Origin: Stanieria cyanosphaera PCC 7437
GTDB taxonomy: Bacteria > Cyanobacteriota > Cyanobacteriia > Cyanobacteriales > Xenococcaceae
Direction of reading: 5' to 3'
Assembly: GCF_000317575.1 (NCBI RefSeq)
Contig: NC_019748.1
Span: 2,425,199 to 2,489,198 of the forward strand
Length of the DNA: 64,000 bases
The notes under the pieces are model-generated. The model worked only from the letters and a program-made list of their open reading frames with translations, was not told the DNA's origin and made no database searches. The translations under genes were made by a program, and so were the position numbers. This document shows positions 1,861-55,306 of this stretch, piece by piece. Within the stretch, counting starts at the first letter, position 1. The number at the start of each line of letters is the position of its first letter.

Positions 1861-1875
1861 CTAAATTAATGCTAA

Positions 1876-4392: not shown

Positions 4393-4402
4393 CGATCGCT
4401 CT

Positions 4403-4544: not shown

Positions 4545-6374
4545 TTACCAATCATCATCAAGCCTCAGACTTTCTGCTTCTGCCTGTAATTCTTGAAAAT
4601 AATCGCTTTGAGTAATTTTAGCTACTTCCTGCTCCCGCTTTTGCTGATCGATCTCGATTTTTAATTCTTCTAACTGCCGTTTGAGTTGTTCTTCTTGACA
4701 CTTGCGTTCGGAGATATCTTGAATAATACCTTCGTAATACAATATTTTTCCACTTGGATCGTAGACTGCTCTAGTATCTTCTTCCACCCAAATAATACTG
4801 CCATCTTGGCGGTAAACTTGGTACTCCCAGTTATGAACTTTTCCATACATATCTAAGTGGCGTTGAAATTCCTTCCTACCTTGGGGATCTACATATACTT
4901 GGCTACTTATTTCGGTGACGTTAGCAATCATTTCTACTGGAGAATCATAACCGTAAATTCTAGCCATGGCTGGGTTGACACTGATGAAACGACCGTCTGG
5001 ACTCGACTGAAAAATACCTTCTAGAGCATTTTCAAAGATACTACGATAGTTTTCTTCGGCAATTCGCAAAGCCTCATTTTTTTCCTTCAAAAGATGAAAG
5101 GAATTTTTGAGTTGATGAGACATACTGTTGAAAGAATTTGCCAACTTTTCGATTTCGATAATGCGACTGGGTTTAACGTGTTGATCTAAGTTGCCTGCTG
5201 CAATATCTTCGGATGCTTGAGAAACTCGCATAATAGGATAAGTAATCCAGCGAGAGGTGAGAATACCAAGAGCGATCGCTACTCCTAATGCTCCCAGACT
5301 TAACCACAAAGTATTACGCTGACTAGCATTAATCTGCGACATAAAATCCGCTTCAGGAATGGTTAGAATTACCAGCCAATCTAGATTTCGATCTTGGAAA
5401 GGAACTACTTGAACGTATTGCCTCTCTCCATTGAGCTTAAAATCGAGTTGTTGAACGGACTGAATTTGATTGAGGTTACTAAACTGAGTGTTTAGATATT
5501 TCGCTGTCTCTCGAATATTTGCATTAGCACTGGCTGTAGCCAAAAGTCTTTCACTCTGTTCGCCACTTCCTGTAACCATCGGTTCTTGAGACGAGGTAGC
5601 GACCAATCTTCCCGATCGCTCTACAATAAAGGCAGTACCCGTCTTACCAATCTCCAGGTTTTGCAAGAAAATACTCAACTCTTGGGGCAAGAAAAAGTCA
5701 GTAGCACATACCCCGATGGCAGCGTTTGTTTGATCGTAGACAGGAAAACTTGCCGTAACCGTAGGAAACAGAGTAGAAAAGGCGAGGTAAATTTCACTCC
5801 AAACTTCCCCTCGTGCTGTTTTTGCTGCCTCATACCAAGGGCGCACGCGTGGATCGAAGGGTTTATCGAAGCTGCCAATTTGTTGGGTTGTGAGATCGCC
5901 CCGTTCATCGAAGCCGAAACCCTGGCGAATAAAGTTTGTCTCAGAATTGCTAAATTGCAGAACAACCTTGGTGGAATCTTGCTCTGAAAGCCTCCTGACG
6001 CCGAAAAATCCACCCTGTTCATCTCCACAATAAATAAAACTCAAGGTTGGATAGTTCTGCATTTGCTGCCAAAATAGATGCTCCCCCCTGGGGTTGCTGA
6101 CATCAATATCTCCCCGAGCAAAAGCAGTGGCATTCAAGCGATTGATCGCTTTAGGAATTTCAATATAAGAGTCCAGTCTTTCTGTAATGCGATTGCTGAG
6201 TTCGGTGCGTAATTGACTGGCAACATCATTAATTGCTTGTTGTCCGCTGCGGTAAGCAAGAAACCCAACTAAGCCAACAGCAGCAACAATTTGTAGAACG
6301 AAAGGAACAACCAGTGTAGTTCGTAAGCGAAATTTGCGGAGATAGCGATCGCTTAAACCTTTTGGATTAATCAT
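4545..6374 (-). CDS. Cache-HAMP-PAS membrane sensor without output domain
   Basis: A membrane receptor: transmembrane helix at about residues 17-45, a large extracytoplasmic double-Cache-like region (about 45-345), a second helix (about 352-372), HAMP (about 373-428), one PAS domain with its PAC segment (about 440-555), and an acidic coiled-coil tail ending LRLDDDW. No histidine kinase, GGDEF, cyclase or MCP domain follows, so it must signal through a partner. It is the last gene of a tight operon, 15 bases after the glutaminase, which points to an amino-acid-related ligand; that is inference. Antisense frames inside it are not genes. Confidence 0.88.
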   Translation of the reverse strand: MINPKGLSDRYLRKFRLRTTLVVPFVLQIVAAVGLVGFLAYRSGQQAINDVASQLRTELSNRITERLDSYIEIPKAINRLNATAFARGDIDVSNPRGEHLFWQQMQNYPTLSFIYCGDEQGGFFGVRRLSEQDSTKVVLQFSNSETNFIRQGFGFDERGDLTTQQIGSFDKPFDPRVRPWYEAAKTARGEVWSEIYLAFSTLFPTVTASFPVYDQTNAAIGVCATDFFLPQELSIFLQNLEIGKTGTAFIVERSGRLVATSSQEPMVTGSGEQSERLLATASANANIRETAKYLNTQFSNLNQIQSVQQLDFKLNGERQYVQVVPFQDRNLDWLVILTIPEADFMSQINASQRNTLWLSLGALGVAIALGILTSRWITYPIMRVSQASEDIAAGNLDQHVKPSRIIEIEKLANSFNSMSHQLKNSFHLLKEKNEALRIAEENYRSIFENALEGIFQSSPDGRFISVNPAMARIYGYDSPVEMIANVTEISSQVYVDPQGRKEFQRHLDMYGKVHNWEYQVYRQDGSIIWVEEDTRAVYDPSGKILYYEGIIQDISERKCQEEQLKRQLEELKIEIDQQKREQEVAKITQSDYFQELQAEAESLRLDDDW

Positions 6375-6389
6375 TATAAAATAAAGCTT

Positions 6390-7418
6390 TTACCAACCAT
6401 CAACTAAATCATTGCCTTCAATCCATTCGTTTAAATCTCGCTCTGGTTCGGCGACGTTAAACAAATGCAAGCCAAAGTCTCTAGCAAGATCTTCACAGAC
6501 TTTGATACCCCGCACGCTGTTGCCCTTGGCATCGAGGGGTGGTGAAAACGTGCCAATGCCTAGCTTTCCAGGAACTAATGCTGTAATTCCACCACCTACA
6601 CCACTTTTAGCCGGCATTCCTACTTTGTAAATCCATTCTCCCGAATAATCGTACATACCGCAGGTGAGCATAACGCTGATTACATCTTGCACGTAACGCT
6701 CATCCAACGCTCTTTCTTGGGTAACTGGATTTACACCCCCATTAGCTAGAGTTGCTGCCATCATGCCCAAATCCCGAGCATTGACCATAATAGAACACTG
6801 TTGAAAATACAAATCGAGGGTTTCTTCAATGCGATCGCTAATCATACCAAAATTAAGCATTAAATAAGCGATCGCTCGGTTTCTATTGCCCGTTGCTTTT
6901 TCTGAAAGAAACACAGGTACGTTGAGATCTAATTCTCGTCCCGTATAACAACGGAACATTTCTAAAACACGTTTGAGTCTTTCTGTGGCACTGTTGCCTC
7001 GAATCAGATCTGTAGTTGCGATCGCTCCTGCATTAACCATCGGATTATAGGGACGATTGGTTTTTTCATCCAGGACAATAGAGTTAAAGGCTTCTCCCGT
7101 TGGTTCAACACTCACTTTACTGTTGACATATTCCCTGCCACAATCTTCTAAGGCCAAGCCATAAACAAAAGCTTTAGAAATCGACTGAATAGTAAACAGT
7201 TTGTCACAGTCACCTACTTCAAATTCCTGTCCTTTACTAGTAATTGCACAAATACCAAACCATTCGGGAGTAGCTAATGCTAGTTCTGGAATGTAATCTG
7301 CTACTGCACCATCGGTAAGAGATTGATATTTTTCATGTAAGTCGATCAGATAGCTACGAAAAGGAGAAGCAACTGCCTGAATGGAGTTAGTCAGAGAAGT
7401 CAAATCGTTGTTTGCCAT
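6390..7418 (-). CDS. glsA: Glutaminase A family
   Basis: Hydrolyses glutamine to glutamate and ammonia with a serine beta-lactamase-like fold. The catalytic SxxK is at S79-K82 (QSISK), followed by MVNAGAI with the conserved asparagine and KSGVGGGI, the family's KSG motif. At 342 aa it is slightly longer than single-domain GlsA (about 310). It sits between a MinD-like ATPase gene (27 bases upstream) and a Cache sensor gene (15 bases downstream), so it is probably co-transcribed and may supply or remove the ligand sensed by the receptor. Confidence 0.95.
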
Positions 7419-7445
7419 GAGCGTAGAATTATGAAATATTTTTGG

Positions 7446-8201
7446 TTAAGCAACAATGTGTTGAGCTACTTTGCTAAATTCCTGACTTACAGGATGAGTG
7501 GGATATTTGACGCAAAAAACTCCTTCGCTGGCAAGCTGTACCAAATCTTCTGATAAAGGAAATATTCCCGCTACGGGTGCGGTATAGGTTTCCTCTACTT
7601 TTTGCCGTAATGCTTCTAAATTCATACTGCTCAAAACCTTGTTTATCGCTAGCAGCATCTTACGTACTTTTAATTGTCGCGCCACATCCACAGTTACTGC
7701 CGTGCCTTGATAGTCTTGTTTATCAGGACGCAAAATCAAAATCAAAATGTGAGAAATAGCGATTGATAAAAAAGTTTCTTTAGATAAACCTGGATGAGTA
7801 TCGATGAATAAATAGTCTAGTTGCAAACCCTTGACTAACTTGCGAAAGCCATCATTGAGAAGTTTGACATCGTAGCCTTCTTTAAGAATTTTGGCAATGT
7901 CATCTGCTTTGAAGCTGGAAGGTACTAAAAAAAGTTTGCCATCGCCTTCTATGCCTACATTAGCACTGACATCGTAGGCAGCATCTTCCATTGCTGCTCG
8001 TCCCCAAAGATAATCATTAAGAGTTTTGTTAATATCGTCTGCTTCGAGACTAAAAAGCATATGAATCCCAGGAGAAGGCAAATCAGTATCAACAATGCCG
8101 ACTCGATTACCTTGCGAAGCAACAGTTGTTGCTAAGTTGGCAGTAAAATTAGATTTTCCTGTTCCGCCACGATAGGAATGAATGGAGATAACTTTAGGCA
8201 T
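7446..8201 (-). CDS. MinD/ParA-like ATPase with variant Walker A
   Basis: A P-loop ATPase of the MinD/ParA class, likely to bind a membrane or partner protein in an ATP-dependent way. The Walker A reads YRGGTGKSN at residues 11-19: arginine stands where the signature lysine of KGGxGKT is normally found. The switch segment DTDLPSPGIH and the Walker B YLFIDTHPG are present. At 251 aa it lacks a clear MinD C-terminal amphipathic helix. It is the first gene of the operon with glutaminase and the Cache sensor, and probably positions or gates that receptor; this role is inference. Confidence 0.88.
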   Translation of the reverse strand: MPKVISIHSYRGGTGKSNFTANLATTVASQGNRVGIVDTDLPSPGIHMLFSLEADDINKTLNDYLWGRAAMEDAAYDVSANVGIEGDGKLFLVPSSFKADDIAKILKEGYDVKLLNDGFRKLVKGLQLDYLFIDTHPGLSKETFLSIAISHILILILRPDKQDYQGTAVTVDVARQLKVRKMLLAINKVLSSMNLEALRQKVEETYTAPVAGIFPLSEDLVQLASEGVFCVKYPTHPVSQEFSKVAQHIVA

Positions 8202-8485
8202 TTGGTATAGTTAGATACTAAAAATTATTTTTACTCTTTGTAAATTAAGTGTAAAGTATACAGCATTATCGCTTTAATAATAACCAAAAAAAATTAGCGT
8301 TAATTAAACTAAAAAAACGCTATTTTGTCATTAATTCATGACAGTTTTTAACTAGTGTAGGGTAGCAGAAATAATGCCTGAGTTAAATAGCTCGGCACAA
8401 ATAAAACTAACTGACTAAGGTCTTCATTTGTTCTTTTTTCTTTTTTTTAAATTCAAATTGAAGATTAAATCATAAAGAAATCAGG

Positions 8486-10237
8486 TTAAAAATCAACCAT
8501 TTCTGTAACAGTTTTAGCTATTACTTCTGGTTGCCAAACAGCAACAGTATTTAAACTACTTTTCAGAAACATAGTTTGACAGAGACGGCGTTGAATCTTG
8601 CCACTGGAAGTTTTGGGAATGCTGCCAGTTTTAATCAATGCGATCGCACTTACTTCAACTTCATGTTCTTTGCCTACTGCTTGACAGATAGTATTTACCA
8701 ATTCCTCTGCATTCAAGTTTCTTAAATAACTGCGTTCGATTTCCTGAACAATCACTAATTTTTCTGCTGTTCCTGTTTCTACGGCAAAAGCTGCACCACA
8801 ATTTAACCTAAAAGCAGGATGGGATTCTTGTACGGTTCTTTCTACGTGTTGGGGATAACAATATCTGCCCCAAAAAATCATGACTTCTTTTAATCGCCCT
8901 GTGATATACAATTCTCCATCTTGGAAAAAGCCTAAATCACCTGTACGTAAAAAGGGTCCTTCACCTGTGGCAAGATAAGCTTGAAAGGTTTGTTGAGTTT
9001 CCTCTGGTTGTTCCCAGTAACCTTTACCTATTCCCGAACCCGATACCCAAATTTCTCCTACTTGTTTGTCACTACATTTAGTTAATGATTCGGGATTAAC
9101 AATGATAATTTCCGTATCTAACCAATTTTTACCACAACCAACGATTGCTCTTACTCCTGATTGTTCGGGAGTAACTTCCATTACTCGATTTTGCGCCAAA
9201 GCTATTCCATCGACATATTTAATCTGAGGAGGTGCGGTTTGTAAGCCTCCAGAAACAAATAAAGTAGTCTCTGCCATACCATAACAAGGATAAAAGGCTT
9301 TTGAGCGAAAACCGCAAGCAGCAAAAATACTACTAAATCTCTCTATCGTTTCTGCCCTTACAGGTTCAGCACCAGAAAAAGCTACTTGCCAACTACTTAA
9401 ATCTAATTCAGCTAACTGTTCTTCTGTAGCCCGTAAACATAATAAATCGTAAGCGAAATTGGGCCCTCCACTAGTAGTTGCCTGATACTGGGTAATCGCT
9501 TTTAACCAGTTAAGAGGCTGTTGACTTAAAGCGATCGGAGACATCAAAATACTCTCTGTTCCTAAATAAACTGGCTGCAAGACATTGCCAATCAAACCCA
9601 TATCGTGATACATCGGCAACCAACCAACTACTACCGTATCTTTCGTATGTTGGAAGGCTTGTTTAATCATCTCCTCATTACAAAGAATATTGCCATGAGT
9701 TACCATCACTCCTTTAGGTATGCCTGTCGAACCAGAAGTGTATTGTAAAAAAGCCAGAGTATCTTCATTAATTTTTGGTTGCATCCAATCTTGAGCCAGA
9801 TCATTAGTAAGATCGTCAGTAGCAAGACAATTGAATCCCGTGTGTTCTAATTGAGACTCAAACAGAGTTAAAAAATCTTTAGTCGTTAAAACAATAGTTG
9901 CTCCAGATGCGATCGCTCTTTGTTGAAGTTTAGCAATTTCCTTACCATGGCGTGGCGGAGTCGTAGTAACTGCAATCACTTCAGCATAAAGACAACCAAA
10001 AAAAGCTGCAATAAATTCTAAACCCGCATCATAAGAATAAACCAACAAAGCCCTCGAACCAGCAGGAACTAAAGATTGCAACTTTGCTGCGATCGCTTTA
10101 GCTTGACAATCTAATTCAGCATAAGTTAAAAGTGCCGATTCTGTTTTACTATCTTTAAGGAATCTATAAGCAATTTGGTTTGGTCGATCTAAAGCTCTAT
10201 AGTTTAAAAGATCAACTAAATTAGAATGATTTGTCAT
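8486..10237 (-). CDS. Fatty acyl-AMP ligase (FAAL-like, AMP-binding)
   Basis: Activates a carboxylic acid, probably a fatty acid, as an acyl adenylate. The P-loop-like motif YTSGSTGIPKG is at residues 166-176, WLPMYHDMGLIG at about 206-217 (typical of the FAAL subgroup), then LRTGDLGF and the C-terminal catalytic lysine in TSSGKIQRR. The length, 583 aa, matches a free-standing ligase. FAALs normally pass the acyl group to an ACP of a polyketide or olefin synthase, but no ACP, PKS or NRPS lies nearby, so its acceptor is unknown. The ATG at 10237 is well supported by alignment of the N-terminus. Confidence 0.9.
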   Translation of the reverse strand: MTNHSNLVDLLNYRALDRPNQIAYRFLKDSKTESALLTYAELDCQAKAIAAKLQSLVPAGSRALLVYSYDAGLEFIAAFFGCLYAEVIAVTTTPPRHGKEIAKLQQRAIASGATIVLTTKDFLTLFESQLEHTGFNCLATDDLTNDLAQDWMQPKINEDTLAFLQYTSGSTGIPKGVMVTHGNILCNEEMIKQAFQHTKDTVVVGWLPMYHDMGLIGNVLQPVYLGTESILMSPIALSQQPLNWLKAITQYQATTSGGPNFAYDLLCLRATEEQLAELDLSSWQVAFSGAEPVRAETIERFSSIFAACGFRSKAFYPCYGMAETTLFVSGGLQTAPPQIKYVDGIALAQNRVMEVTPEQSGVRAIVGCGKNWLDTEIIIVNPESLTKCSDKQVGEIWVSGSGIGKGYWEQPEETQQTFQAYLATGEGPFLRTGDLGFFQDGELYITGRLKEVMIFWGRYCYPQHVERTVQESHPAFRLNCGAAFAVETGTAEKLVIVQEIERSYLRNLNAEELVNTICQAVGKEHEVEVSAIALIKTGSIPKTSSGKIQRRLCQTMFLKSSLNTVAVWQPEVIAKTVTEMVDF

Positions 10238-10361
10238 TTGCTCCTGTTTAACTGATAAAAGTAAAAAAGTAAGGAACTTATGTTGTCAAAAATAATTCAA
10301 AATACACTAGCTAACTATTGATAGTGGATTAATTATTTTTTATCTTTGTTGTATCTGTATT

Positions 10362-10841
10362 ATGTTGTTCATTAACTTTACTTCGGGAAACTTAAATAAA
10401 ATCTTATCTCGTCTTTTTACTACTGGTATCCTAGCAGCAATGGGTATCTTTGGAGGTATAGTTCCAGAGATTTCTCCGCAATTTCCACAGTTGTCAATGA
10501 TTTCTTATGCTTATGCTCAAGATTATACTCAAGATGAAGTAGTCAATTATGCTAGGGCTGGTTTCCAAGTAGAAATGTTACGACAACAGGTTTACAAAGA
10601 AATTAAAGGTATTATTAATCAACCTCCACCCGATATAGTTTGTAATCAACCAGCAACTTTAGAAAATTTATCTAGTAATGTCAAAAAAATTGCGACCAAA
10701 TATTGCGATGATTCTCGACAAATTGTCCAAAGAAATAACTTAACAATTAATCGTTTTAATGAACTTAAACAAGTTTATGACCGTGGCGGTTCTTTTTATC
10801 AACAAGTTCAAAATATTTTAATTGAGCTTCAAAGACCATAA
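10362..10841 (+). CDS. Secreted DUF4168 family protein
   Basis: A 159 aa protein with an N-terminal hydrophobic segment (about residues 10-50, ending in a signal-peptide-like AYAQ) and a helical C-terminal part with the DUF4168 pattern: YTQDEVVNYARAGFQVE, paired cysteines (about 78 and 106), and INRFNELKQVYDRGG. The family is of unknown function and probably periplasmic. The gene is monocistronic, divergent from the FAAL gene and converging with the ArsA operon. Confidence 0.8.
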   Translation: MLFINFTSGNLNKILSRLFTTGILAAMGIFGGIVPEISPQFPQLSMISYAYAQDYTQDEVVNYARAGFQVEMLRQQVYKEIKGIINQPPPDIVCNQPATLENLSSNVKKIATKYCDDSRQIVQRNNLTINRFNELKQVYDRGGSFYQQVQNILIELQRP

Positions 10842-10911
10842 ACAAATCGTTTTTTTGAAATTATTCTTAATTTTTTATCTTACTTTTCACATTTATATTT
10901 AATTAAATAAA

Positions 10912-10945
10912 AATATGGTCGTGACCAACAAGGATTGACCATATT
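10912..10945 (-). terminator. Hairpin at the end of the ArsA operon
   Basis: AATATGGTC (10912-10920) pairs with GACCATATT (10937-10945), a 9-bp perfect stem. Read on the minus strand it lies about 25 bases after the arsA-like stop codon and is followed by a T-rich stretch (TTTTTATTT), so it fits a rho-independent terminator for that operon. It may serve the convergent DUF4168 gene as well. Confidence 0.7.
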
Positions 10946-10970
10946 CTGAAAAATTGAATCTTGAGTAAGA

Positions 10971-12158
10971 TTAAGCTTTCGTTAAATTAGAAAAACTAAT
11001 TTTTAAGTAATCTTCTTCCATTTTTGCTCCTGATGGAGTTAACGCAGCCAAGGCTTGAGGCAAAACTAAATTGCGGCGATGATTCCCAATTCTAATATTT
11101 AACTCATCACCAGTTTTATTTAATTGAATTTGTTCTTTAGGAATTCCAGGTAGATACAATTCCAGACTATAATTATCTTTGTTTTGCACTACTTTAACAG
11201 TATTTTCTTGATAATAAACCTGAGCCGGGTCTTCATCTTGATAAAGAATCTCTTTAAGCTTTTCTAAAGCTTCTAATCCACACATTTCTTCGGAAAAAAG
11301 TGGTGCTTCTTTTACAGGTAAAGGATGAAAATTATCATAAATTTCCTGTTTATAAACTGTTTGATTTTCTTTCCAACGTTGGAAGAAAGGATCGCTTACA
11401 GAATCGGGGATAATTCGGTTAGCTACTACCAAATCTGTCGCTACATTATACAAACTTAAATAAGCATGAGCGCGGAGAGATTCTTTAATCACCATTTTTT
11501 CAGGATTCATTACCAAACGCACCGAAGTTTGATTATTATCCGTCAACACCTTTTCTAAAGCTTCAATCTGTTCGTAAAATTCATAAGGCGCATCCATTAC
11601 TTCTTTATCTGGTAAAGAAAAACCCGTAATCGGTTTAAAAATTGGCTCAAACAATGGTCGTAATGCTGCTGACATTCCCTGTAAAGGTTTGTAAAAACGT
11701 CTCATATACCATCCCCCTACTTCTGGAAGACTGAGTAATCTTAAAGCAGTTCCTGTTGGAGCAGAATCAATAATGAGTACATCAAAATCGCCTTCATCAT
11801 AATGACGCTTCATTCTTACCAAACCAAAAATTTCATCCATTCCTGGTAAGATTGCCAATTCTTCAGCTTGAACACCTTCTAGACCTCTTGCTTGCAAGAC
11901 TTGGGTAATATAACGTTTTACTGCACCCCAGTTGCCTTCCAGTTCCATTAGTGCATCTAATTCTGCACCCCACAGATTAGGACGTACTGATATAGGTTCA
12001 TGACCTAATTCCAAATCAAAACTATCTGCAAGAGAATGAGCAGGATCTGTACTCAAAACCAAAGTTTTATAACCAAGTTCGGCACAACGAAGACCAGTAG
12101 CAGCAGCTACTGAGGTTTTACCTACGCCTCCTTTACCAGTCATTAAAATTACGCGCAT
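10971..12158 (-). CDS. ArsA/Get3-family ATPase with alpha-crystallin-like tail
   Basis: A soluble ATPase of the Get3/TRC40/ArsA class. The P-loop [14 protein letters not shown] is at residues 8-21, the switch [11 protein letters not shown] at about 39-48 and the switch [12 protein letters not shown] near 130. Unlike fungal Get3 it carries no zinc CxxC, and it ends in a beta-rich domain (about 315-395; [17 protein letters not shown]) resembling the HSP20/alpha-crystallin fold, as in many cyanobacterial and plastid homologues. Arsenite resistance genes are absent, so a chaperone role in membrane-protein targeting is more likely than arsenite export. Last gene of a three-gene operon. Confidence 0.88.
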
Positions 12159-12205
12159 ATTGAAGTTTTGTCCTAGCTGAATAAATATATTTACATTACT
12201 TATTA

Positions 12206-12601
12206 TTATTGTGAATTTTGTTTAAAACCGAACAAATTTTGTTTCAAAACTTCCCAGGGAGAAATGTGCCAATAGTCTATATGAGCAATAATTAAACCGT
12301 TTTGATTGAGTTTAAGTTCACTCCAACCAGGAATGCTCAAACGTGGTTGCCAAGGCAGAGGGGAAGTCAAGTGTAAAGTCCATTCTGTTTTAAGACAATT
12401 TTCCTGAAGGCTAATGTCATGTAGATCTAAGTTTATCTCCCTAAAAAAATTCCCCAAAAAACCAATCATAGTTTGATAGCGTTGAATTCCCCGAAACTCG
12501 TTCAAAGGGTCTTTAAAATAAACATCGTCAGCGTAAATACTATAAGTTTGGTTCTTGGGAAAGTTTTGATAGTCTTGTTTGATAATTTCAATGATTTCCA
12601 T
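12206..12601 (-). CDS. DUF2358 (SnoaL/NTF2-like) protein
   Basis: A 131 aa single-domain protein of the DUF2358 family, an NTF2/SnoaL-like fold common in cyanobacteria and plastids. The blocks [31 protein letters not shown] and [12 protein letters not shown] are recognisable. No catalytic residues can be assigned, and no signal peptide is seen. It is the middle gene of an operon, 8 bases after the 192 aa protein and 47 bases before the ArsA-like ATPase. Confidence 0.8.
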
Positions 12602-12609
12602 TGTGTAGT

Positions 12610-13188
12610 TTATGATTCGTTAGCGTCTACTTCTGACCATAATCGCTTTAACTGATATTTCCAAGCACCCAAAAATTGTTCTCTTTCCTCGGGTTTTTGA
12701 TTCAGTCCGCCCAACATTCCTTCTTGATAAAATCTTTCTAGAGTTTGTAAAGTTGTCTCCAAACTTTGATTTTGAAGTTTAGCAGCATAAATGATTTGAC
12801 GAATACGTCCTTCAATTAAATCTTGAAAAGATTCTGACAAACCTGCTTCTGCCATAGTTCCTAAAGAGGTAATTGCACTTTGTAAATCTTCTGAAGTTAA
12901 ACTTTCAAGCCGATGATAAAAAACACCCCACAACACATTTTGTCCTATGGCATAGCGAACTTCACCAGTTGATTCAAAATTAGCTGTTAACAATTGCTCA
13001 AACATCACTTGGGCTTCGCTTACTGGTGCAATAGGAGTCAACAAGCGTAACCACGAATGATTTTCTGATAAAATAACTAATAAGTTCAAGCGATCGCTTT
13101 TAACTTGCCATGTATCTTCATCATTGTGAGCGATCGCATCAGAATTGAACAATTGAGCAAGAATGACAGAAATTTCTTCAATTTTCAT
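12610..13188 (-). CDS. Conserved cyanobacterial protein, CesT/YbjN-like N-terminus
   Basis: A 192 aa soluble acidic protein. The first 110 residues (IEEISVILAQLF, then alternating beta strands) look like the type III chaperone/YbjN fold, and the rest is helical. I do not recognise a specific function. It is the first gene of the operon with DUF2358 and the ArsA/Get3 ATPase, so a chaperone-like accessory role is a reasonable guess but only a guess. Confidence 0.7.
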   Translation of the reverse strand: MKIEEISVILAQLFNSDAIAHNDEDTWQVKSDRLNLLVILSENHSWLRLLTPIAPVSEAQVMFEQLLTANFESTGEVRYAIGQNVLWGVFYHRLESLTSEDLQSAITSLGTMAEAGLSESFQDLIEGRIRQIIYAAKLQNQSLETTLQTLERFYQEGMLGGLNQKPEEREQFLGAWKYQLKRLWSEVDANES

Positions 13189-13262
13189 TATTAAAAAACA
13201 AGTCTTATTAATTAAAAATGTATACTGAAGTTTCGTCTAAACAATCTACATTTAGTCAGACT

Positions 13263-13387
13263 TTAGCGGTTTCCACGTTTTAGGACTACAGTAAACATTT
13301 AGATTTTTGTTGATAGTTGTTTGTTGGTCGCTACGCGTCCCTTCGGTGAGGTTGATTATTAATCTCTCATAATTAGTAATTACTAAC
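13263..13387 (+). repeat. Degenerate dispersed element, copy upstream of tadA
   Basis: Starts TTTAGCGGTTTC, contains ctacagt and a Gatttttgttga stretch, and ends with CTCATAATTAGTAATTA. The same order of blocks recurs at 13927-14032 and 44562-44674. This copy carries an extra GC-rich piece, CGCTACGCGTCCCTTCGG, in its middle. It is non-coding and supplies most of the tadA upstream region. Confidence 0.6.
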
Positions 13388-13412
13388 TGATAACTGTTAT
13401 AGATCTGATGAT

Positions 13413-13925
13413 ATGAATACTAACAATTTAGTTAATTGGGAATGGCTTTCTCAATTAGACTACCAAACTTATCTTTTCCATAGACGATGGATGCAACAGG
13501 CTCTTCAATTAGCTCATCAAGCAGGAAAACAAGGAGACGTACCTGTTGGTGCAGTTATTGTTGATAGTCAAGGAAATTCTATTGCTCAAGCAGCCAACCG
13601 CAAAGAAAGAAATCAAGATCCTACTGCTCATGCTGAAATTCTTGTTTTAGGTACTGCTGCTCGGGTCAAACAAAATTGGTATCTTAACGATTGCACTCTC
13701 TACGTTACCCTAGAACCTTGTCCTATGTGTATTGGAGCAATTATTCAAGCCAGAATCAATTTACTTGTATATGGTACTGATGACCCCAAAACTGGTGCAG
13801 TACGTACTGTAATTAATCTTCCTGATAGTGCTTGTTCTAATCACCGACTGAAAGTTTTAGCTGGCATTGAAGAATTTCATTGTCGTCAGCAACTACAAAA
13901 TTGGTTTGCTAACAAAAGAAGCTAA
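13413..13925 (+). CDS. tadA: tRNA-specific adenosine deaminase
   Basis: Deaminates the wobble adenosine of tRNA-Arg(ACG) to inosine. The zinc site is complete: HAE at residues 73-75 and PCPMC with Cys103 and Cys106. GDVPVGAVIV and the TGAV segment further on match TadA. At 170 aa it has about 20 extra N-terminal residues compared with the bacterial average. The ATG at 13413 precedes a plausible longer N-terminus; a later ATG at residue 27 (RRWMQQAL) is possible. The gene is flanked on both sides by copies of one dispersed element. Confidence 0.92.
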   Translation: MNTNNLVNWEWLSQLDYQTYLFHRRWMQQALQLAHQAGKQGDVPVGAVIVDSQGNSIAQAANRKERNQDPTAHAEILVLGTAARVKQNWYLNDCTLYVTLEPCPMCIGAIIQARINLLVYGTDDPKTGAVRTVINLPDSACSNHRLKVLAGIEEFHCRQQLQNWFANKRS

Positions 13926-13926
13926 T

Positions 13927-14032
13927 CTAGCGGTTCTCAATTTTTAGAGCTACAGTTCATTTCCCTGGTTGTTGTCGATTGTTAATTGTTGATTATTTAT
14001 TCCTCATAATTAGTAATTAGTAATAATCTAAA
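13927..14032 (+). repeat. Degenerate dispersed element, copy downstream of tadA
   Basis: Begins CTAGCGGTTCTC, continues with agagctacagtt and ttgttgattattt, and ends with CCTCATAATTAGTAATTAG. It is in the same orientation as the copy upstream of tadA, so the gene lies between direct repeats. No coding potential. Confidence 0.6.
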
Positions 14033-14051
14033 CAGGTTTTTATGAATTTGC

Positions 14052-14747
14052 TTAAATTGGTAAACGTTGAATATTTTTATTACTGCCAATTATCACCATA
14101 ATTAATCCTTGAGTAAGTTTTTGCTGAGGATCGGGATTGATCACAAATTTATCACCATTACTGACTGCTAAAGCAATCACTCCATAACGCCCTCTCAGTT
14201 CCAATTGGGCTAAAGTTTTGCCATGAAATTCTTCAGGAATTAAGATCTCAACAATACTATTTTCTGGGTCTAATTCAAAGCGTTCAAGAATAGCTGGTTT
14301 AGTTAAAGTCTGAGCTAAAGCACAACCAGCTTCATACTCAGGAAACACCACATGATCTGCACCAACTCTCTGTAATAATTTACCATGAATTTCTGAAGAA
14401 GCTTTAGCGACGACATAATTAACCCCAGCTTCTTTAACATTAAGAGTAGTAATAATACTTTCTTGAAGATAATTACCAATCGCAACAATCACCGTATCCA
14501 TTTCAAAAATACCTGCTTCCTTTAATGACTCTGGTTCAGTCGAATCAAGTTGAATGGCATGGGAAGCAATCTTTTGTGTTAATGCTTGAGTAACAAGTTT
14601 TTCATCGATATCTGTACCTAAAACTTCATAACCCATTCGATGTAAAGAACTACAAACTGCTCTGCCAAAACGTCCTAATCCAATCACTGCAAATTGACGA
14701 TTTTCTTTACGAAGATTATTCAAAAATTTGAGAGATTTTAAATTCAC
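14052..14747 (-). CDS. ktrA: Potassium uptake regulatory subunit KtrA/TrkA type
   Basis: Cytoplasmic RCK (TrkA-N/TrkA-C) protein that forms a ring on the KtrB channel and gates it by nucleotide binding. A Rossmann motif GLGRFGRAV is at about residues 23-31, followed by an acidic end of the second strand (GTDIDE). The C-terminal TrkA-C domain spans about 150-231. The length, 231 aa, is standard. It follows the KtrB gene by 63 bases on the same strand, so the two probably form an operon. Confidence 0.93.
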   Translation of the reverse strand: MNLKSLKFLNNLRKENRQFAVIGLGRFGRAVCSSLHRMGYEVLGTDIDEKLVTQALTQKIASHAIQLDSTEPESLKEAGIFEMDTVIVAIGNYLQESIITTLNVKEAGVNYVVAKASSEIHGKLLQRVGADHVVFPEYEAGCALAQTLTKPAILERFELDPENSIVEILIPEEFHGKTLAQLELRGRYGVIALAVSNGDKFVINPDPQQKLTQGLIMVIIGSNKNIQRLPI

Positions 14748-14810
14748 TCTTAACCTCGTTGATCTTTAATAATTTATTTTATTTTCTCCTGAGCATTTTC
14801 ATTTGATTGC

Positions 14811-16145
14811 TTAACCAACCAATAAATTTTCTTCTGGGTAGTTTAAGGTAGTAGGGCGAGGATCTCCAATAATAGCTGCAATCAACAGTAAAATTCCTAC
14901 TCTTCCTGCATACATTGTCATAATTAACATCAATTGAGATAACTTAGAAAGACTAGCAGTAATTCCCGTAGATAAACCTACAGTTGCAAAGGCGGAAACA
15001 ACTTCAAACAAAATTGCAATTAAATCGATACTTCCATCTATTGAAGAAATAATAATAGTAATAAAGACAATAGATGCAGCAGAGCCAAATACCACTGCAA
15101 CTGCTTTTAAAATTAGAGGATATGGAACTTCTCTTTGATATAAAATAACTTCATCTTTTCCTTCTAAAACTGAACGAGTACAATTAAATAAAATTCTTAA
15201 GGTTGTAGTTTTTATTCCTCCACCTGTCCCACTAGGACTTGCTCCGACAAACATTAAACCAATAGTTAAAAATAAACCTGCTGTAGTCATTTTTCCAATA
15301 TCGATTGAATTAAACCCAGCAGTTCTAGTAGTGACAGACTGAAACCAAGCTGTCAAAAATCGACCTTGAATATCTAAATTTCCCAACGTGTTTTGATTGT
15401 CGAATTCGATCAACCAAAACCCAATAGTACCTAATATTAAAAGAATAAGTGTAGTGCTTGTAACTACTTTAAAATTGAGAGAAAAACAAAATTTTTCTTT
15501 ACGTTTTTGGATTCGATTCAACAACCATATATACATTTCAATGATTACTTGATAGCCAATTCCACCAAAAATAATTAATCCAGGAATAACTAAATTAATT
15601 GTCCAAGAAGAAGCATATTGAATGAGATTATCAGGTAATAAACCAAAGCCAGCATTATTCCAAGCACTAATACTATGGAAAATTGCAAACCATAATCCTT
15701 GTGATAAGCCAAAATCTTTGGTGAAAATTGGCAACATTAAAAAAATCGCTGTAATTTCAAAAAGTAAAGTTGTGGCGATAATTGAACGAATTAAATTAGA
15801 GCTTCCTTGCAAAAAGGGGCGGTCAAAAGATTCTTGAATGGCAAACTTTTGTTTGAGGTCAAATTTTCTTCCGATTAATAAAATTAGAAAGGTAGTAATC
15901 GTCATATAACCTAAACCACCAATTTCGATTAACAGAGCAATAATTAATTGTCCCCAAAAGGAAAAATAACTTCCTGTATCGACTACGACTAAACCCGTAA
16001 CACAAACCGCAGAAGTAGAGGTAAATAAAGCCACAATCGGATCGTTCCACTCACCATTACTGGTAGCAAAAGGCATCGTTAATAATAAAGTCCCAATAAC
16101 TATAACGGCTAGGAACCCCAGACAAATAGTTCGAGCTATGGTCAT
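14811..16145 (-). CDS. ktrB: Potassium (sodium-dependent) transporter membrane subunit KtrB
   Basis: A TrkH/KtrB family channel-like potassium transporter in the cytoplasmic membrane. Four pore loops are visible, with the filter glycine in TSTSAVCVTGL, ISAWNNAGFGL, SVTTRTAGFNS and SAFATVGLSTG. A glycine-rich GASPSGTGGGIKTTT intramembrane loop lies in the third unit. At 444 aa it fits the family. It is the first gene of the KtrB-KtrA pair. In cyanobacteria KtrB works with KtrA and KtrE in osmotic adaptation. Confidence 0.93.
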   Translation of the reverse strand: MTIARTICLGFLAVIVIGTLLLTMPFATSNGEWNDPIVALFTSTSAVCVTGLVVVDTGSYFSFWGQLIIALLIEIGGLGYMTITTFLILLIGRKFDLKQKFAIQESFDRPFLQGSSNLIRSIIATTLLFEITAIFLMLPIFTKDFGLSQGLWFAIFHSISAWNNAGFGLLPDNLIQYASSWTINLVIPGLIIFGGIGYQVIIEMYIWLLNRIQKRKEKFCFSLNFKVVTSTTLILLILGTIGFWLIEFDNQNTLGNLDIQGRFLTAWFQSVTTRTAGFNSIDIGKMTTAGLFLTIGLMFVGASPSGTGGGIKTTTLRILFNCTRSVLEGKDEVILYQREVPYPLILKAVAVVFGSAASIVFITIIISSIDGSIDLIAILFEVVSAFATVGLSTGITASLSKLSQLMLIMTMYAGRVGILLLIAAIIGDPRPTTLNYPEENLLVG

Positions 16146-48938: not shown

Positions 48939-49085
48939 TTGTCGGCTTAATTAAAGGTTGGCGATAATTTTACTATGAATTGATGAGCGATTAAATTGGG
49001 AGCATTGCAGTAGCAAATTTGTGAAGCAGTATCATTCTGAGTTTAATTGTTTTTCATAAGGTTTAACTCTCTTTCTAGTAGATCA

Positions 49086-52000
49086 ATGTTCGTCTATCGT
49101 AGTGATCAGTTTGAGCGACAACTAAGTAGATATCACAGCTTGTCATTACAAGTTGACCGTCTTTGTCAAGAATTGGAACAAATGAGCCTCAATGACGCAC
49201 AAACTAGATTTGAGCGCATTTATCCCTATCTCAAACGCAAAGAAGGTAATTTTCGCTTGATTGCACGGATTTATTCTTTAGAAACTGAAAGAGTACTAGC
49301 ATGGTTGACAGTATTTTCAAGAGGTTCTAGAGATTATCACTTTTTCTTACGAGAAAGAGAAAATTATGGCGATGGTTCTTTAGAAGGGGGAGTAGAACAA
49401 TCAATTAGACAATGGCTGAAAGTAGAAAAGGCAAAAGCAAAACCAATTATCACTACCTCTCCTCATCTGCCTGAAAATTTATTAACTTGGTTTAAACCAC
49501 CTCGTTGGGATTTGGATACCGATAGCAGTGTTATTTACGAAAGTGAAATTTGGCTTGATCAATTGAGTCAAACAGAAATCTTTGCTCACAGTTCTATTTA
49601 TTATCAAATCATTGAAAAAATTGTTGAGAATTTTGCGACAATTGGCGAATCAACTCAATGGCAACATCTCAAACTTTATGGTCAAGAAGATAAATATGTT
49701 TTATTTAGTCCTTTAACCTTTGTTGATTACCTTTCCCAACAAATTATTTTTTTAATTGCACCTTTTAATCATCATCCTTTTGATCGAGAATTAGCTGAGA
49801 TTGTTGATTCTTTGAGTATTAGAGGTAATGGGAGAAATTGGTTGCAAAATACGAACAATCTTTCTCTAGAAACTTTAACTAATCTTGCTAAACGTACTTA
49901 TCCTAGTTATCTGCTAGCTGTGCCAGAAATGTGGTTAGCTATTCAACAAGGTAATGGAGTTAACTTAGCTCTTTCTGCAGAAGAAAAAGCCATTCTTCAT
50001 TCAGTTTCCACTACCAAAACTTTACCTCTATTTTTAAATGGTAGAGCGGGAAGTGGTAAATCAACCATGCTATTTTACCTATTTGCTGAATACTGCGATC
50101 GCCATATTAAAGAATGTTATAAAAGCAAACAAAACCTTTATAAAAAACCTCACCCTTTATTTCTTACTTATAATCGTGGAGTTGCCGAATTAGCTAGAAG
50201 TAAAGTTTTTTCTTTATTAGAGTCTAATTATCGTTTTTTAGCAGACCGAAACGAGTTCAAACCAATTCCCAGTATTACTCCTTTTTTTAAAACTTTTCGT
50301 TCTTTTTTACTTAATTTATTACCAACCGAAACTAAAATTTTCTTTCGAGAAGATAATTATATTTCTTTTCATCGTTTTCGTCAGTTGTGTCGTCGGAGTT
50401 GGCGTAATTATTCTCCAGAAAAATGCTGGTTAGCTATTCGTACTTTTATCAAAGGTTATTACTTAGACGAACGCGATCAATATTTTACTGATGAAGATTA
50501 TCAAGAAATTCCTAAAAAAGAAAAAAGTCTTTCTGTCGAAGAATTTCAACAAATTTATCGTCATGTTTGGCGATGGTATCAAAACTATACTAAAGAAAAT
50601 CAACTTTGGGACGATCAAGATTTAATTCGTCAAGTGTTACACCTCAAATGTTATCGTCCTGAATATACAGCTATTTTTTGTGATGAAGCTCAAGATTTTA
50701 CTCGATTAGAATTAAAATTAATCATGGGCATCTCAGTTTTTTCTCGCTACGATCTAGAACAAGAACAGTTTATTGATAGTTTTCCTTTTGCTTTTGCTGG
50801 AGATCCGCTTCAAACTCTTAATCCTACTGGTTTTCGTTGGGAAAGTTTACAAGCAGCTTTTTATAATGAAATTCTCTCTATTTTAACGCCTACTAAAAAA
50901 CTTCCTCTTGATAAACATTTTACTGAATTGAAATGTAATTATCGTTCTGTAGCTTCAATTGTTGGTTTAAGTAATTTAATTCAATTATGGCGAAAATTTT
51001 TATTTAATTATAGTGAAATCAAACCTCAACAAGCGAGAAAATTTAGTCAGTTTGTTCCGCAGAAATTTATTATTGGTCAAAATATTTCAAGCACAGCTAT
51101 TCAAACTTTATTAAAAGATACTTTGATTCTGATTCCTTGGGATGAAGGTGGAGAAAAAGATTTTGTTTTACAAGATGAAATTTTAGGCAAATTTTTAACA
51201 GAAGAAAATCAAGCAGAAATTCCTTGGAATATTTTAAGTACTACTGCTGCTAAAGGATTAGAATTTAAACAAGTTATTCTCTACAAATTTGGTGAATGTT
51301 GCCCAAGAGGACTTTTACAACTTAAAACTGAACCAAAAGAAGAGGAAAAGTATTTTTTAAATAAACTATATGTTGCTATTTCACGTGCTACCGAACGTTT
51401 ATTTATTATTGATTCTCCTAGAGGTGAAGAAAAACTTTGGCAATATGCAAGCGATCGCAATTTTTTAGAAGAATTTTTAAACTTAATTGAGCATTCAGAA
51501 ACAAAAATTGATTGGCAACAACAAATTCAATTAGTTGAGATAGGAATTAATCCACAAATTATTGCCTCAGATGATTTAGAATCTCTAGCTCAAACTTTTA
51601 AACAAGATGGTTTGAATACTGAAAATCCTGAGTCTTTAAAACGCGCTTATCAAGCTTATCAACAACTTGGTAATCAACATCAAGCTATCTTTTGTTTGGC
51701 ATGGTTTCTAAAATTTACCAGCAGCTTTGTTAAAGCAGGAAAACATTTTTTGACTTTAAAAGATGTATCGGAAGCTTGTGATTGCTTTTGGCGAGGAATG
51801 GCTTGGCAAGAGTTATTAAATTTATTATCATCTCAAGAGAATCAAGCTCAAAGTTTTTCTCAATATCAAAGTTTAATTCCTTTAATTAAGTTTTTAGCTG
51901 AGAATAATCTTTCAGTTCAAACTAATTCTGAAATAATTAAATTAGAAACGCTTTTAAATTTTACTGAGTTTTTAGCAAGAGAATTACAACAATCTAAACT

Positions 52001-52820
52001 TCCTGAGTATTTGTATACAACTCAAGGACAGATTGCTTTAAAGAAATACCCAAAAATTATTCATAAATTACTTGAACAAAACTATCCTCTTTCTTTATTA
52101 CAATGGCAACAAATAGGATTAGTCTTAGCTAGTTACGGGGAATTTACTAATCGAGAAATCGAGAAAAATGCAGCCGAATGTTTTTATCACGGAAAAAATT
52201 ATGCTCTAGCTCTAAAATTTTGGGAAAAAGTTGTTAATGAGCCAGAAAAATCTTGTGAAACTAAATATTATTTCGCTAAAGCTAGAGTTACTGGACTTCC
52301 TGATGGAATTGAATATTTAGCCAAAGCTCAGGCACATCAAACAATTATTTATTTATGGGTTAAATCTGGAAAACCTCAAGCAGAATTATGGTTAAAATAT
52401 CTTGCTCCTGCTTTAGAAGCTCTTCAATATTGGAATCAAGCATTAATAGTTTATTGTTGGCTAGATAATATTAAAAAAGTTCAAACTTGTTGGCAATTAA
52501 TTAGTAAAGATACTAAATCTATAAGCTTATTTAAAAAGTTACTTAAATATTATATTTCTCATCAATATTGGCAAGAAGCGATCGCAACTATGAGCAGCGA
52601 TCTAAATCCAGAAATTGCTCAAACTCCTTTAAAGTATTATTTCATTTATCTTTTATCTAAATCTCAATTAACACCAAATCAATTAAATCAAAATCAAAAA
52701 AATTTATATCTTGATTTTATTCAACAAAATATTATTAATAATTCTGATTGGCAGAAATATCTTTTAAGCGAACAAATTAAAACAACTTTAACAAAAATTG
52801 GTTATTTACATTCCAACTGA
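49086..52820 (+). CDS. Large TRANK1-like superfamily 1 helicase
   Basis: A 1244 aa protein from the ATG at 49086; a TTG at 49047 would add 13 residues. Residues 1-100 contain a small module like a RelE-fold (NFRLIARIYSLETERVLAWLTVF). The UvrD-like core has Walker A NGRAGSGKST at about 317, Walker B IFCDEAQDF at about 530, then AGDPLQTL, KCNYRS, TTAAKGLEF and VAISRATERLFI at about 770. The last 450 residues are helical and TPR-like. Metazoan TRANK1 and its bacterial relatives share this plan. The role is unknown; DNA repair or defence are possible. Confidence 0.85.
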   Translation: MFVYRSDQFERQLSRYHSLSLQVDRLCQELEQMSLNDAQTRFERIYPYLKRKEGNFRLIARIYSLETERVLAWLTVFSRGSRDYHFFLRERENYGDGSLEGGVEQSIRQWLKVEKAKAKPIITTSPHLPENLLTWFKPPRWDLDTDSSVIYESEIWLDQLSQTEIFAHSSIYYQIIEKIVENFATIGESTQWQHLKLYGQEDKYVLFSPLTFVDYLSQQIIFLIAPFNHHPFDRELAEIVDSLSIRGNGRNWLQNTNNLSLETLTNLAKRTYPSYLLAVPEMWLAIQQGNGVNLALSAEEKAILHSVSTTKTLPLFLNGRAGSGKSTMLFYLFAEYCDRHIKECYKSKQNLYKKPHPLFLTYNRGVAELARSKVFSLLESNYRFLADRNEFKPIPSITPFFKTFRSFLLNLLPTETKIFFREDNYISFHRFRQLCRRSWRNYSPEKCWLAIRTFIKGYYLDERDQYFTDEDYQEIPKKEKSLSVEEFQQIYRHVWRWYQNYTKENQLWDDQDLIRQVLHLKCYRPEYTAIFCDEAQDFTRLELKLIMGISVFSRYDLEQEQFIDSFPFAFAGDPLQTLNPTGFRWESLQAAFYNEILSILTPTKKLPLDKHFTELKCNYRSVASIVGLSNLIQLWRKFLFNYSEIKPQQARKFSQFVPQKFIIGQNISSTAIQTLLKDTLILIPWDEGGEKDFVLQDEILGKFLTEENQAEIPWNILSTTAAKGLEFKQVILYKFGECCPRGLLQLKTEPKEEEKYFLNKLYVAISRATERLFIIDSPRGEEKLWQYASDRNFLEEFLNLIEHSETKIDWQQQIQLVEIGINPQIIASDDLESLAQTFKQDGLNTENPESLKRAYQAYQQLGNQHQAIFCLAWFLKFTSSFVKAGKHFLTLKDVSEACDCFWRGMAWQELLNLLSSQENQAQSFSQYQSLIPLIKFLAENNLSVQTNSEIIKLETLLNFTEFLARELQQSKLPEYLYTTQGQIALKKYPKIIHKLLEQNYPLSLLQWQQIGLVLASYGEFTNREIEKNAAECFYHGKNYALALKFWEKVVNEPEKSCETKYYFAKARVTGLPDGIEYLAKAQAHQTIIYLWVKSGKPQAELWLKYLAPALEALQYWNQALIVYCWLDNIKKVQTCWQLISKDTKSISLFKKLLKYYISHQYWQEAIATMSSDLNPEIAQTPLKYYFIYLLSKSQLTPNQLNQNQKNLYLDFIQQNIINNSDWQKYLLSEQIKTTLTKIGYLHSN

Positions 52821-53398
52821 ACATTTTGAGATATAGCAACTTAAAAAAAGAAGTTGTAGTTGTTCTTAGTTATGATTTATGTCCATCGATGTGTTTAAGG
52901 ATACATTTTTAAAAGTTTAAGCAAAAAATTTTAATTAAATTTCATTTTCGTAAAATATGCTACAGAATTAACCTGCAACTTTTTAAATCAGGCGTTATAC
53001 TATCTTTCGGTTAGTGACAGAAAACATAATCTTCAGACTAAGCTAGGCTCAATTAGTTAACTAGTTGGTCTTAAATTCAAACTTATAGTTACTGTTTTAA
53101 AAATCTAATCAAAACTACACCAAACCTTATCAAAATCTTCAATTAAACTTTATTGAGATTCAGTAAGATTGCTCATGTCATTGTTTTTTATTGTCAGACA
53201 GAATCATAGCATCGCTAAGTAAGATTATTTGAATCATTATTTTAATGCTTAAACTGCATTATCTAGATTCAGGAACTTTACTTATCTGTTATTAATCAAA
53301 TTAGAGAGCATTATTAAGCAACGACCAACGTAATAAATAAATGAGGGTAGCTACATCAGAGCGACCCTACCAACTGAGTAAATTAGAGTTCGTTAATC
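52821..53398. other. Gene-free region after the helicase
   Basis: 578 AT-rich bases with no credible ORF. A short imperfect inverted stretch (GAGGGTAGC with GCGACCCTA) near 53342-53372 precedes the nitrogenase-C-like gene and may be part of its leader. I see no recognisable RNA or mobile element. Confidence 0.5.
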
Positions 53399-53743: not shown

Positions 53744-53789
53744 GATACGTATTTACTAGATCGTATTTTTGGGCAACAGTAAAATCCTC

Positions 53790-54554
53790 ATGGCAATTAT
53801 CGCGCTTAAAGCCTGGTACTTAGAGCAGTATGAACCAATCAAACAGGTAATTAAAAAACCTCACCATCTACGTTTGAGTAGAAATAGTTTATTAAAATCA
53901 GGCTTGCGAGTAGATTTTTTGGATGACCGCGCTACAGTAGAAGCATCAGAGTGGTTTGCACGCTACTTAGAAGGAGAAAGTGTCGAATTTTATATTGAAG
54001 GAAGTGGTAATTATTTAATTGCCAATATCGATTTAGTTTCTCAAGAGATTTACTTTACCAAACAAGAAACTTTATTAGGACTAGAACCAGTTATTTATCT
54101 TAGTCCTCAACGAGAATATCCTCAAGCCAACGAAGCTTTGCAAACTGCTTTAGAATTAACCATAGAACAAATAAACGAGCGATCGCGTTTAAGCTTGACT
54201 TTAGAAATTGCTCCCCGTGGCAATAATGATCCTGTGCGCCTCAGTAGTAGTCAATTAAGAAAGATTCGGAAAAGTTTATTATATATTGCAGATGGTACAC
54301 CTATTGCGAGTGTAGGAAGTCAAGATTCTGCTCAACTGTTGCTTAATTCTAATGTCTGTGTTGAGATCGGTTATGCTTTAGAAAGCAAAGATCCAGGACA
54401 AATTTTATTAATTCAGCAACAACGTTCTGATTTGAATGGTCAATTACCTTTCGATTTTTCTCAATATAAACAATTAAATTATAAAAATGCTTCTGAGTTG
54501 AATAAAAGCTTACCTAAATTAATTACGGCTTTACTACAAAGATTTAGTTTGTAG
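53790..54554 (+). CDS. Protein with TIR-like or deoxyribosyltransferase-like C-terminal domain
   Basis: A 254 aa protein from the ATG at 53790; the TTG at 53769 is weaker. The N-terminal 100 residues are of unknown fold (LKAWYLEQYEPIKQVIKKPHHLRLS). The C-terminal 150 show the pattern of nucleotide-binding TIR-like/nucleoside deoxyribosyltransferase-like domains: NSNVCVEIGYAL with a candidate catalytic glutamate, then ILLIQQQRS and LPFDFSQYKQLNY. No partner nucleotidyltransferase is adjacent. It lies 47 bases after the nitrogenase-C-like gene and may be co-transcribed with it. Confidence 0.65.
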   Translation: MAIIALKAWYLEQYEPIKQVIKKPHHLRLSRNSLLKSGLRVDFLDDRATVEASEWFARYLEGESVEFYIEGSGNYLIANIDLVSQEIYFTKQETLLGLEPVIYLSPQREYPQANEALQTALELTIEQINERSRLSLTLEIAPRGNNDPVRLSSSQLRKIRKSLLYIADGTPIASVGSQDSAQLLLNSNVCVEIGYALESKDPGQILLIQQQRSDLNGQLPFDFSQYKQLNYKNASELNKSLPKLITALLQRFSL

Positions 54555-54978: not shown

Positions 54979-55137
54979 CAAGAACGCCAGAAATTAGAAC
55001 TTTTGCTTAATCTTAAATTGAAAGAAACTTTAAGCAAAACTGATTCTTGATTAAAAATAATGGATGAAATTAGTCAGGAAGCTATAGATAAAGGACTAAC
55101 TCCAGAAATTCTTGAATCTCTACTTGAGGATGAGTAA
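54979..55137 (+). pseudogene. Antitoxin relic with in-frame stop codon
   Basis: One frame reads QERQKLELLLNLKLKETL, then SKTDS and TGA at 55048-55050, then without frameshift LKIMDEISQEAIDKGLTPEI and LESLLEDE ending TAA at 55135-55137. This is a small helical antitoxin of the type paired with PIN toxins, interrupted by a nonsense codon and possibly beheaded by the IS605 insertion. A 25-codon piece from the ATG at 55060 could still be translated. Confidence 0.65.
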
Positions 55138-55306
55138 TGTTTACGTTTTCGATACTAATGTTTTAGTAAGTGCTTTGTTATTTGCTAATTCTTCATCAAG
55201 AAAGGCTTTTGAAATAGCTTTAGACATTGGTAAAATAATTATTTCAAAAGAGACAGTAGGCGGACTTCATATCATAGTTGCAAGCCACCTTTTTGTAATT
55301 TTTTAA
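55130..55306 (+). pseudogene. Truncated PIN-domain toxin
   Basis: Begins MSNVYVFDTNVLVSALLF with the first catalytic aspartate of PIN/VapC-like ribonucleases (FDTNVLVSA), keeps similarity to about residue 42 (IIISKETV), then runs into unrelated sequence and stops after 58 codons. Its ATG overlaps the antitoxin stop, the usual arrangement. The 3' two-thirds of the domain, with the other acidic residues, are gone. Its end overlaps the antisense HlyD gene end by 35 bases. Confidence 0.75.

Follow-up and report, generated by a model that had tools for sequence, protein, structure and literature searches.

What does a large helicase do when its first residues are predicted to take the fold of an RNase toxin? 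The question is raised by a gene at 49086..52820 (+ strand) of a 64,000-nucleotide stretch of Stanieria cyanosphaera PCC 7437 DNA (contig NC_019748.1, positions 2,425,199 to 2,489,198), referred to below as the window. According to reading of the open reading frame (ORF), Pfam, structure prediction and purifying selection, its 1244-aa product consists of a RelE fold, a second RelE-like fold, a superfamily 1 (SF1) helicase and a TPR-like solenoid. By computation, we find that the ORF and the motor motifs are intact, and we describe predicted folds, conserved residues and operon contexts. The reading that we propose, to which we give an even chance, is a single-protein effector, namely an RNase of RelE type that is gated by a helicase and serves in defence or in RNA surveillance linked to translation. 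With a RelE RNase and a helicase motor in one chain, such a protein would offer a direct test of RNase-toxin switching by nucleic-acid sensing.

The gene is intact and under purifying selection

The ORF runs from an ATG at 49086 to a stop at 52818-52820, exactly as the initial annotation had placed its single 1244-aa protein, and ahead of the ATG its frame stays open back to a TTG at 49047. The antisense strand of 49086-52820 contains many stops and no open reading. The gene is present in a single copy in the host genome (5.54 Mb, 6 contigs) and has a G+C content of 0.31, compared to 0.348 for the window. A sister species carries an intact copy whose product is 88% identical to the window protein. 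Over 1243 codons, the synonymous divergence between the two (dS) is 0.36 and the ratio of nonsynonymous to synonymous divergence (dN/dS) is 0.167; by part, this ratio is lowest over residues 1-150 (0.054), about 0.09 in the helicase and 0.19-0.44 in the segments of the tail. Because the sister copy is intact, 88% identical and shows these ratios overall and over residues 1-150, the ORF is more than a chance one and the gene is under purifying selection.

In the window protein, Pfam detects only helicase families (UvrD-helicase at residues 312-547, UvrD_C at 716-775), and NCBIfam and PADLOC give weak helicase matches only. A sequence search of the PDB returned nothing useful, and a scan of genome contigs with the single window protein as query gave no matches. 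Scanning named genomes of bacteria and archaea with a profile yielded 142 relatives, of which 80 were kept (53 cyanobacterial and 27 not, judged by record titles); one locus, L161, was added later, which brings the non-cyanobacterial loci to 28. The alignment has 75 members, that is, 74 of the 80 plus the window protein, after six with broken or cut ORFs (four cyanobacterial, two not) were dropped. At L044, L080, and L107, the ORF is broken before the end of the tblastn match, possibly by frameshifts or because these are pseudogenes.

A RelE-type fold is predicted at the N-terminus

Residues 1-90 (49086..49355, +) were modelled with AlphaFold2 as part of residues 1-300, from 56 sequences. The predicted local distance difference test score (pLDDT) is about 97 over residues 1-90, and the elements follow one another as strand-helix-helix-(short helix)-strands-helix. 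These elements, together with the VIA and Foldseek matches, reproduce the b-a-a-b-b-b-a order (b, strand; a, helix) of the RelE/ParE (BECR) fold, here of RelE/HigB type. Foldseek ranks 1-16 against the PDB are all RelE, HigB, YoeB, or other type II toxin-antitoxin chains, with probabilities of 0.93-1.00 and target template-modelling (TM) scores of 0.47-0.72. Structural alignment with VIA gave Z 9.9 with HigB2, 9.5 with ribosome-bound Cami1, 9.3 with Thermus thermophilus RelE (root-mean-square deviation, rmsd, 1.9 over 80 aa) and 8.0 with RelE on the 70S ribosome.

Four putative RNase residues, K50 (codon 49233-49235), R57 (49254-49256), R79 (49320-49322), and Y84 (49335-49337), lie within 49233..49337 (+) and are conserved in 69/75, 74/75, 73/75, and 74/75 members of the alignment, respectively. 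In hhalign, they fall on R54, R61, R81, and Y85, positions that do not vary among solo RelE toxins of the host's bacterial family (probability 10, E 0.003; second comparison, probability 57, E 1e-4). When a solo toxin is aligned to Escherichia coli RelE, three of its four residues correspond to R61, R81, and Y87. In the E. coli protein, mutation of R61, R81, or Y87 lowers cleavage while K52A and K54A have no significant effect (PMC2807027). Despite weak profile scores, this register suggests that R57, R79, and Y84 are the counterparts of the catalytic R61, R81, and Y87. The RelE-like start named in the initial annotation is thus borne out by structure prediction, structural alignment and conserved residues. 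RelE toxins are normally restrained by a separate antitoxin. We looked for an antitoxin gene beside the window gene; the 147 nt that precede it (48939-49085) contain no noteworthy ORF.

A possible second RelE-like fold, and other RelE-helicase fusions

Structural alignment alone suggests that residues ~144-235 (49515..49790, +) are a second RelE-like copy, overlooked in the initial annotation. VIA superposes residues 144-230 on Mycobacterium tuberculosis RelE1 (9g12_A; Z 8.8, rmsd 2.0, 81 aa) and residues 146-260 on further toxins, at scores near the level that the tool calls common. Sequence support is absent, since hhalign gives a probability of 2.3 against the solo RelEs and 8.9 against the first fold. 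The second fold does not have the R/R/Y set of the RNases; its conserved residues among the 75 members are E152 and W156.

Fusions of RelE to a helicase occur repeatedly, and only some of them retain the RNase residues. In the same cyanobacterial family, we found ~700-aa proteins with a ParE_toxin-positive start (23.2-24.2 bits, cut-off 23) and a UvrD core but no tail. Four cyanobacterial ORFs (L153, L154, L155, and L156) have a Pfam-positive ParE/RelE start; three are ~700 aa long with ArmD-like motif spacing, while L156 is an 887-aa ORF with the same start and a DEAD-helicase second half, which may reflect a rearrangement. Three further proteins, L021, L024, and L037, combine a RelE-like start with a helicase (and, in L021 and L024, with clear TPR repeats) but do not have counterparts of R81 and Y87. 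Because these three have lost them, retention of the RNase residues in the window family is not automatic.

If the RelE-like domains were catalytically dead or served as gyrase-type adaptors, the protein would be a DNA helicase of repair or restriction whose N-terminus only docks partners. A UvrD/GajB-type core, the DNA-targeting operon partners described below (type I restriction-modification, DrmA, methylases), a second fold without the R/R/Y set and the loss of that set in other RelE-helicases would all fit such a protein. We nevertheless consider it quite improbable, as the four residues of RNase type hardly vary among the 75 members, which come from several phyla, and dN/dS is lowest over residues 1-150.

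The motor motifs are intact and the TPR-like tail ends early

The UvrD-type helicase core proposed in the initial annotation stands, on both Pfam and motif conservation. It covers residues 312-776 (50019..51413, +), with the UvrD-helicase match exactly at the Pfam cut-off (23 bits) and UvrD_C above it. The Walker A motif NGRAGSGKST with K325 lies at 50037..50066 (+) and the Walker B motif (motif II) DEAQD with D533 and E534 at 50682..50696 (+), both placed by alignment. All of what we take to be the SF1 UvrD-type motifs (I, Ia, II, III, IV, V, and VI) are present. K325, D533, E534, Q536, D537, N618-S621, K723, G724, E726, and R767 are identical in 75/75 members, and the motif blocks show no degeneration in the relatives.

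Residues 820-1244 (51543..52817, +) form a TPR-like alpha-solenoid, in agreement with the long helical repeat tail noted at the outset. Pfam TPR_2 matches 17 of 54 tails (best 1.5e-7); one FHA match was also found among the 54, in a member that was not traced. The tail model of L039 (pLDDT 91) shows a solenoid built entirely of helices, after which come a linker and a beta-rich domain; Foldseek matches of the tail are TPR, clathrin and similar solenoids at low TM. The window tail ends early: the window gene and its sister are without a ~190-aa C-terminal piece that is present in most cyanobacterial relatives and that, judged on the L039 model, comprises the linker and the beta-rich domain. This beta domain gave no sequence match in the relatives. 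The intergenic stretch 52821..53398 (+) holds no trace of the piece by three-frame reading or by tblastn with 11 orthologues, and no downstream remnant was found in the sister species either. Because the piece is absent in both species without a trace downstream in either, its loss probably came before the two separated, and selection has continued to act on the shortened gene.

The C-terminal loss might instead have left the window copy as a non-functional, decaying gene. Complete relatives are 1289-1646 aa long (median 1451), none of the other 67 complete ORFs is as short as 1244 aa, and the tail segments have the dN/dS values given above, all of which would fit decay. Yet both sister species share the truncation, with dN/dS at 0.167 and the motifs intact at a dS of 0.36, and we judge decay highly improbable.

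Some distant homologues lie in defence operons

Four of the 28 non-cyanobacterial loci place the homologue in a defence operon on the same strand, a raw count without a random-locus baseline. Flanks of at least 2 kb on both sides were available at 14 listed loci and at L161, and L117 has 1.9 kb downstream; at loci other than these four, genes were named by eye. At L083 (Leptolinea, 1071-13805), the operon is of the type III-B CRISPR kind, with Cmr1-6 upstream and Csx15 downstream of the homologue, which adjoins a gene with a below-cut-off CARF match. Between homologue and Csx15, at 12503-13408, lies a gene of no assigned kind, with a GGTK motif seen by eye. The operon at L088 (Hydrogenedentes, 3366-16131) is a type I restriction-modification (R-M) operon with HsdM (1.6e-62) upstream and HsdR (1.7e-29) downstream, the helicase gene being located between an HsdS-like gene just upstream (by eye) and HsdR; a YhcG-like ORF (by eye) is also part of it. 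L117 (Opitutaceae) has DrmA (1.3e-44) directly downstream and, upstream, a methylase-like gene resembling that of L161. L161, from the same class as L083, has a RapA/SNF2-like helicase (2.3e-21) and a methylase (9e-8) upstream; this locus was sought because of L083 and is not an unbiased draw. Several kb beyond its operon, a 1495-aa ORF (L163:1378-5865) resembles, by eye, a sacsin/HSP90-type ATPase. The defence enrichment among non-cyanobacterial homologues is suggestive. Our gene survey links a cyanobacterial protein that is both widespread and unnamed to parts of CRISPR, R-M, and DrmA loci.

Cyanobacterial copies are patchy but mostly vertical

By our own count, 19 of 386 genomes of the phylum have a near full-length match and 49 any match; at the family level, the gene is present in 7 of 27 genomes. 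This patchy presence rejects a universal housekeeping gene. In the gene tree (79 rows), the window copy and its sister group with Xenococcaceae and Pleurocapsaceae (SH-like approximate likelihood-ratio test, SH-aLRT, 99), and the cyanobacteria show 3 label changes, compared to 18.4 in shuffles. For the most part, the cyanobacterial gene tree follows host families, which points to mostly vertical inheritance. The phylogeny within cyanobacteria is housekeeping-like even if universality is absent. One viral-contig locus holds a relative.

Translation-linked RNA surveillance without a phage role has to be weighed here. The helicase would track mRNA or resolve stalled ribosomes and the RelE domain would cut mRNA in the A site, as a single-protein analogue of helicase-plus-endonuclease decay systems. 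The mostly vertical tree, the fixed synteny, the strong purifying selection and the ribosomal action of the RelE fold are all in its favour, as are Ski2-3-8 chains among the Foldseek matches of the tail, though only as generic solenoids. However, homologues sit within CRISPR, R-M, and DrmA operons, and presence in 19/386 phylum genomes is unusual for a housekeeping function; surveillance as the sole role seems to us fairly unlikely.

The window locus keeps its neighbours in relatives

Context in cyanobacteria was judged from recurrent neighbour clusters and from tallies of 148 neighbours at 34 of 35 loci picked from the 80 (the closest ORFs no more than 5 kb away, with lengths from 130 to <900 aa). 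Next to the window gene lie genes for a Beta-lactamase2 protein and a Mo-nitro_C protein. Two downstream genes recur beside it, the Mo-nitro_C gene at 6 loci (window included) and then, at 5, a conserved protein that the initial annotation called TIR-like; at a seventh locus, Mo-nitro_C lies far upstream. No Pfam TIR match was found in any of five orthologues of this neighbour at E up to 1, which leaves the TIR claim unsupported. The proposed accessory or defence region was not borne out either: relatives have the same downstream neighbours, the tree is mostly host-like, and none of 72,556 plasmid records holds 80% of the gene. The kept neighbours, the host-following tree and the unsupported TIR neighbour rule out a defence-island argument for the window.

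Within the window, 53769-54554 encodes a conserved protein without a Pfam family, in synteny with the helicase and Mo-nitro_C in Hyella, Xenococcus, and Xenococcaceae genomes, and a 64-aa ORF at 55112-55306 resembles, by eye, the shortened start of a PIN-domain (VapC-type) toxin. In the PADLOC and Pfam tallies, mad2 and mad3 occur in 3 members each, mad6, AriA, and PD-T4-6 in 2, and Uma2 in 4; these were not traced to single loci.

A candidate antitoxin-free RNase gated by its own motor

In the gated effector that we propose, residues 1-90 would act as an mRNA endonuclease of RelE type that probably depends on the ribosome. The SF1 motor and the TPR-like solenoid would share its chain, and a second RelE-like fold, bare of catalytic residues, would separate the nuclease from the motor. 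Helicase, second fold and solenoid would together keep the RNase off, in place of a separate antitoxin. Once the motor engages a stalled translation complex, or nucleic acid that is foreign or aberrant, the RNase would be released and would cut mRNA in the A site of the ribosome. We infer the RNase activity, its dependence on the ribosome, the gating and the trigger. In several other phyla, the same module may serve defence systems as an accessory (CRISPR III-B, type I R-M, methylase-DrmA operons), while in cyanobacteria it would be a stand-alone, mostly vertically kept gene for defence or translation-linked RNA surveillance.

Several observations weigh against such an effector. For the N-terminus, the 16 Foldseek matches have E-values of only 0.019-0.13, the profile comparison with solo RelE is weak, and Pfam finds no RelE/ParE family in the window protein and ParE_toxin in 3 of 56 members (best 0.028). 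R79 is replaced by H in L083 and L100 and R57 by K in L100, L083 being the CRISPR-operon member. Some RelE-fold proteins (ParE) are gyrase inhibitors and not RNases. No defence operon was recognised at 24 of the 28 non-cyanobacterial loci, partly due to short flanks. Finally, the cyanobacterial copies, including that of the window, are mostly inherited vertically, and the window group has fixed synteny without recognised defence genes; a role in the host would fit this no less well than defence.

A bolder version, which we entertain only tentatively, is a shared plug-in effector. Defence systems unrelated to one another (type III-B CRISPR, type I R-M, DrmA, and SNF2-methylase operons) would have recruited the RelE-RelE-SF1-TPR family as an accessory. 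Cyanobacteria would have domesticated it into a guard that works on its own, in which nucleic-acid sensing by the motor is coupled to A-site mRNA cutting by an antitoxin-free RelE gated by ATP hydrolysis. The initial annotation had the protein as a candidate for defence or RNA surveillance; that functional frame is still the best one, given far homologues in defence operons and the ArmD precedent, while its argument from local context fails.

Comparison with known systems

The window protein shares with RelE/HigB mRNA interferases the predicted fold and the R57/R79/Y84 set, but differs in having no antitoxin gene, a fused motor, no Pfam RelE match and an extra RelE-like copy. Cami1 (PDB 8phj and 8phb) aligns in VIA with residues 1-120 and 1-117 at Z 9.5 and 8.7, respectively. 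We take Cami1 to be a CARF-RelE fusion, the PDB titles giving only that it is cA4-bound and with the 70S ribosome. This likeness has a parallel in context in the L083 homologue of the type III-B CRISPR locus, although Pfam gives no CARF match in the window protein. GajB of Gabija shares the SF1 UvrD-type core, with weak PADLOC matches (best 2.5e-5); unlike Gabija, the window has no GajA among the neighbouring ORFs, and RelE and TPR parts are added. The initial annotation assigned the helicase to a TRANK1-like subtype, a putative label. A recent survey sets aside many multidomain RelE-fold proteins, including ones without an identified antitoxin (Gerdes, 2025; PMC11980606), and its main text never uses the word "helicase".

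In a literature search drawn mostly from papers outside subscription, ArmD was the sole RelE-UvrD fusion found in print. According to its published description, ArmD of ARMADA II is a UvrD-family helicase with an N-terminal RelE-like domain, and both ArmD and its Walker A lysine are essential in anti-phage defence (PMC12458937). The ArmA-ArmB-ArmC operon is not present among the window neighbours. The cyanobacterial 706-aa P0002, with Walker A K257 and Walker B D454, comes near the ArmD spacing (K266, D454) given in the same paper. The window protein likewise has a RelE-like N-terminus on a UvrD-family helicase, a likeness of architecture, but differs by two RelE-like folds, its Walker A K325 and a TPR-like tail of ~425 residues. 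The window family is an architecture distinct from and larger than ArmD, and we do not file it as ArmD; with it, the ArmD idea, published only recently, reaches a second and larger architecture.

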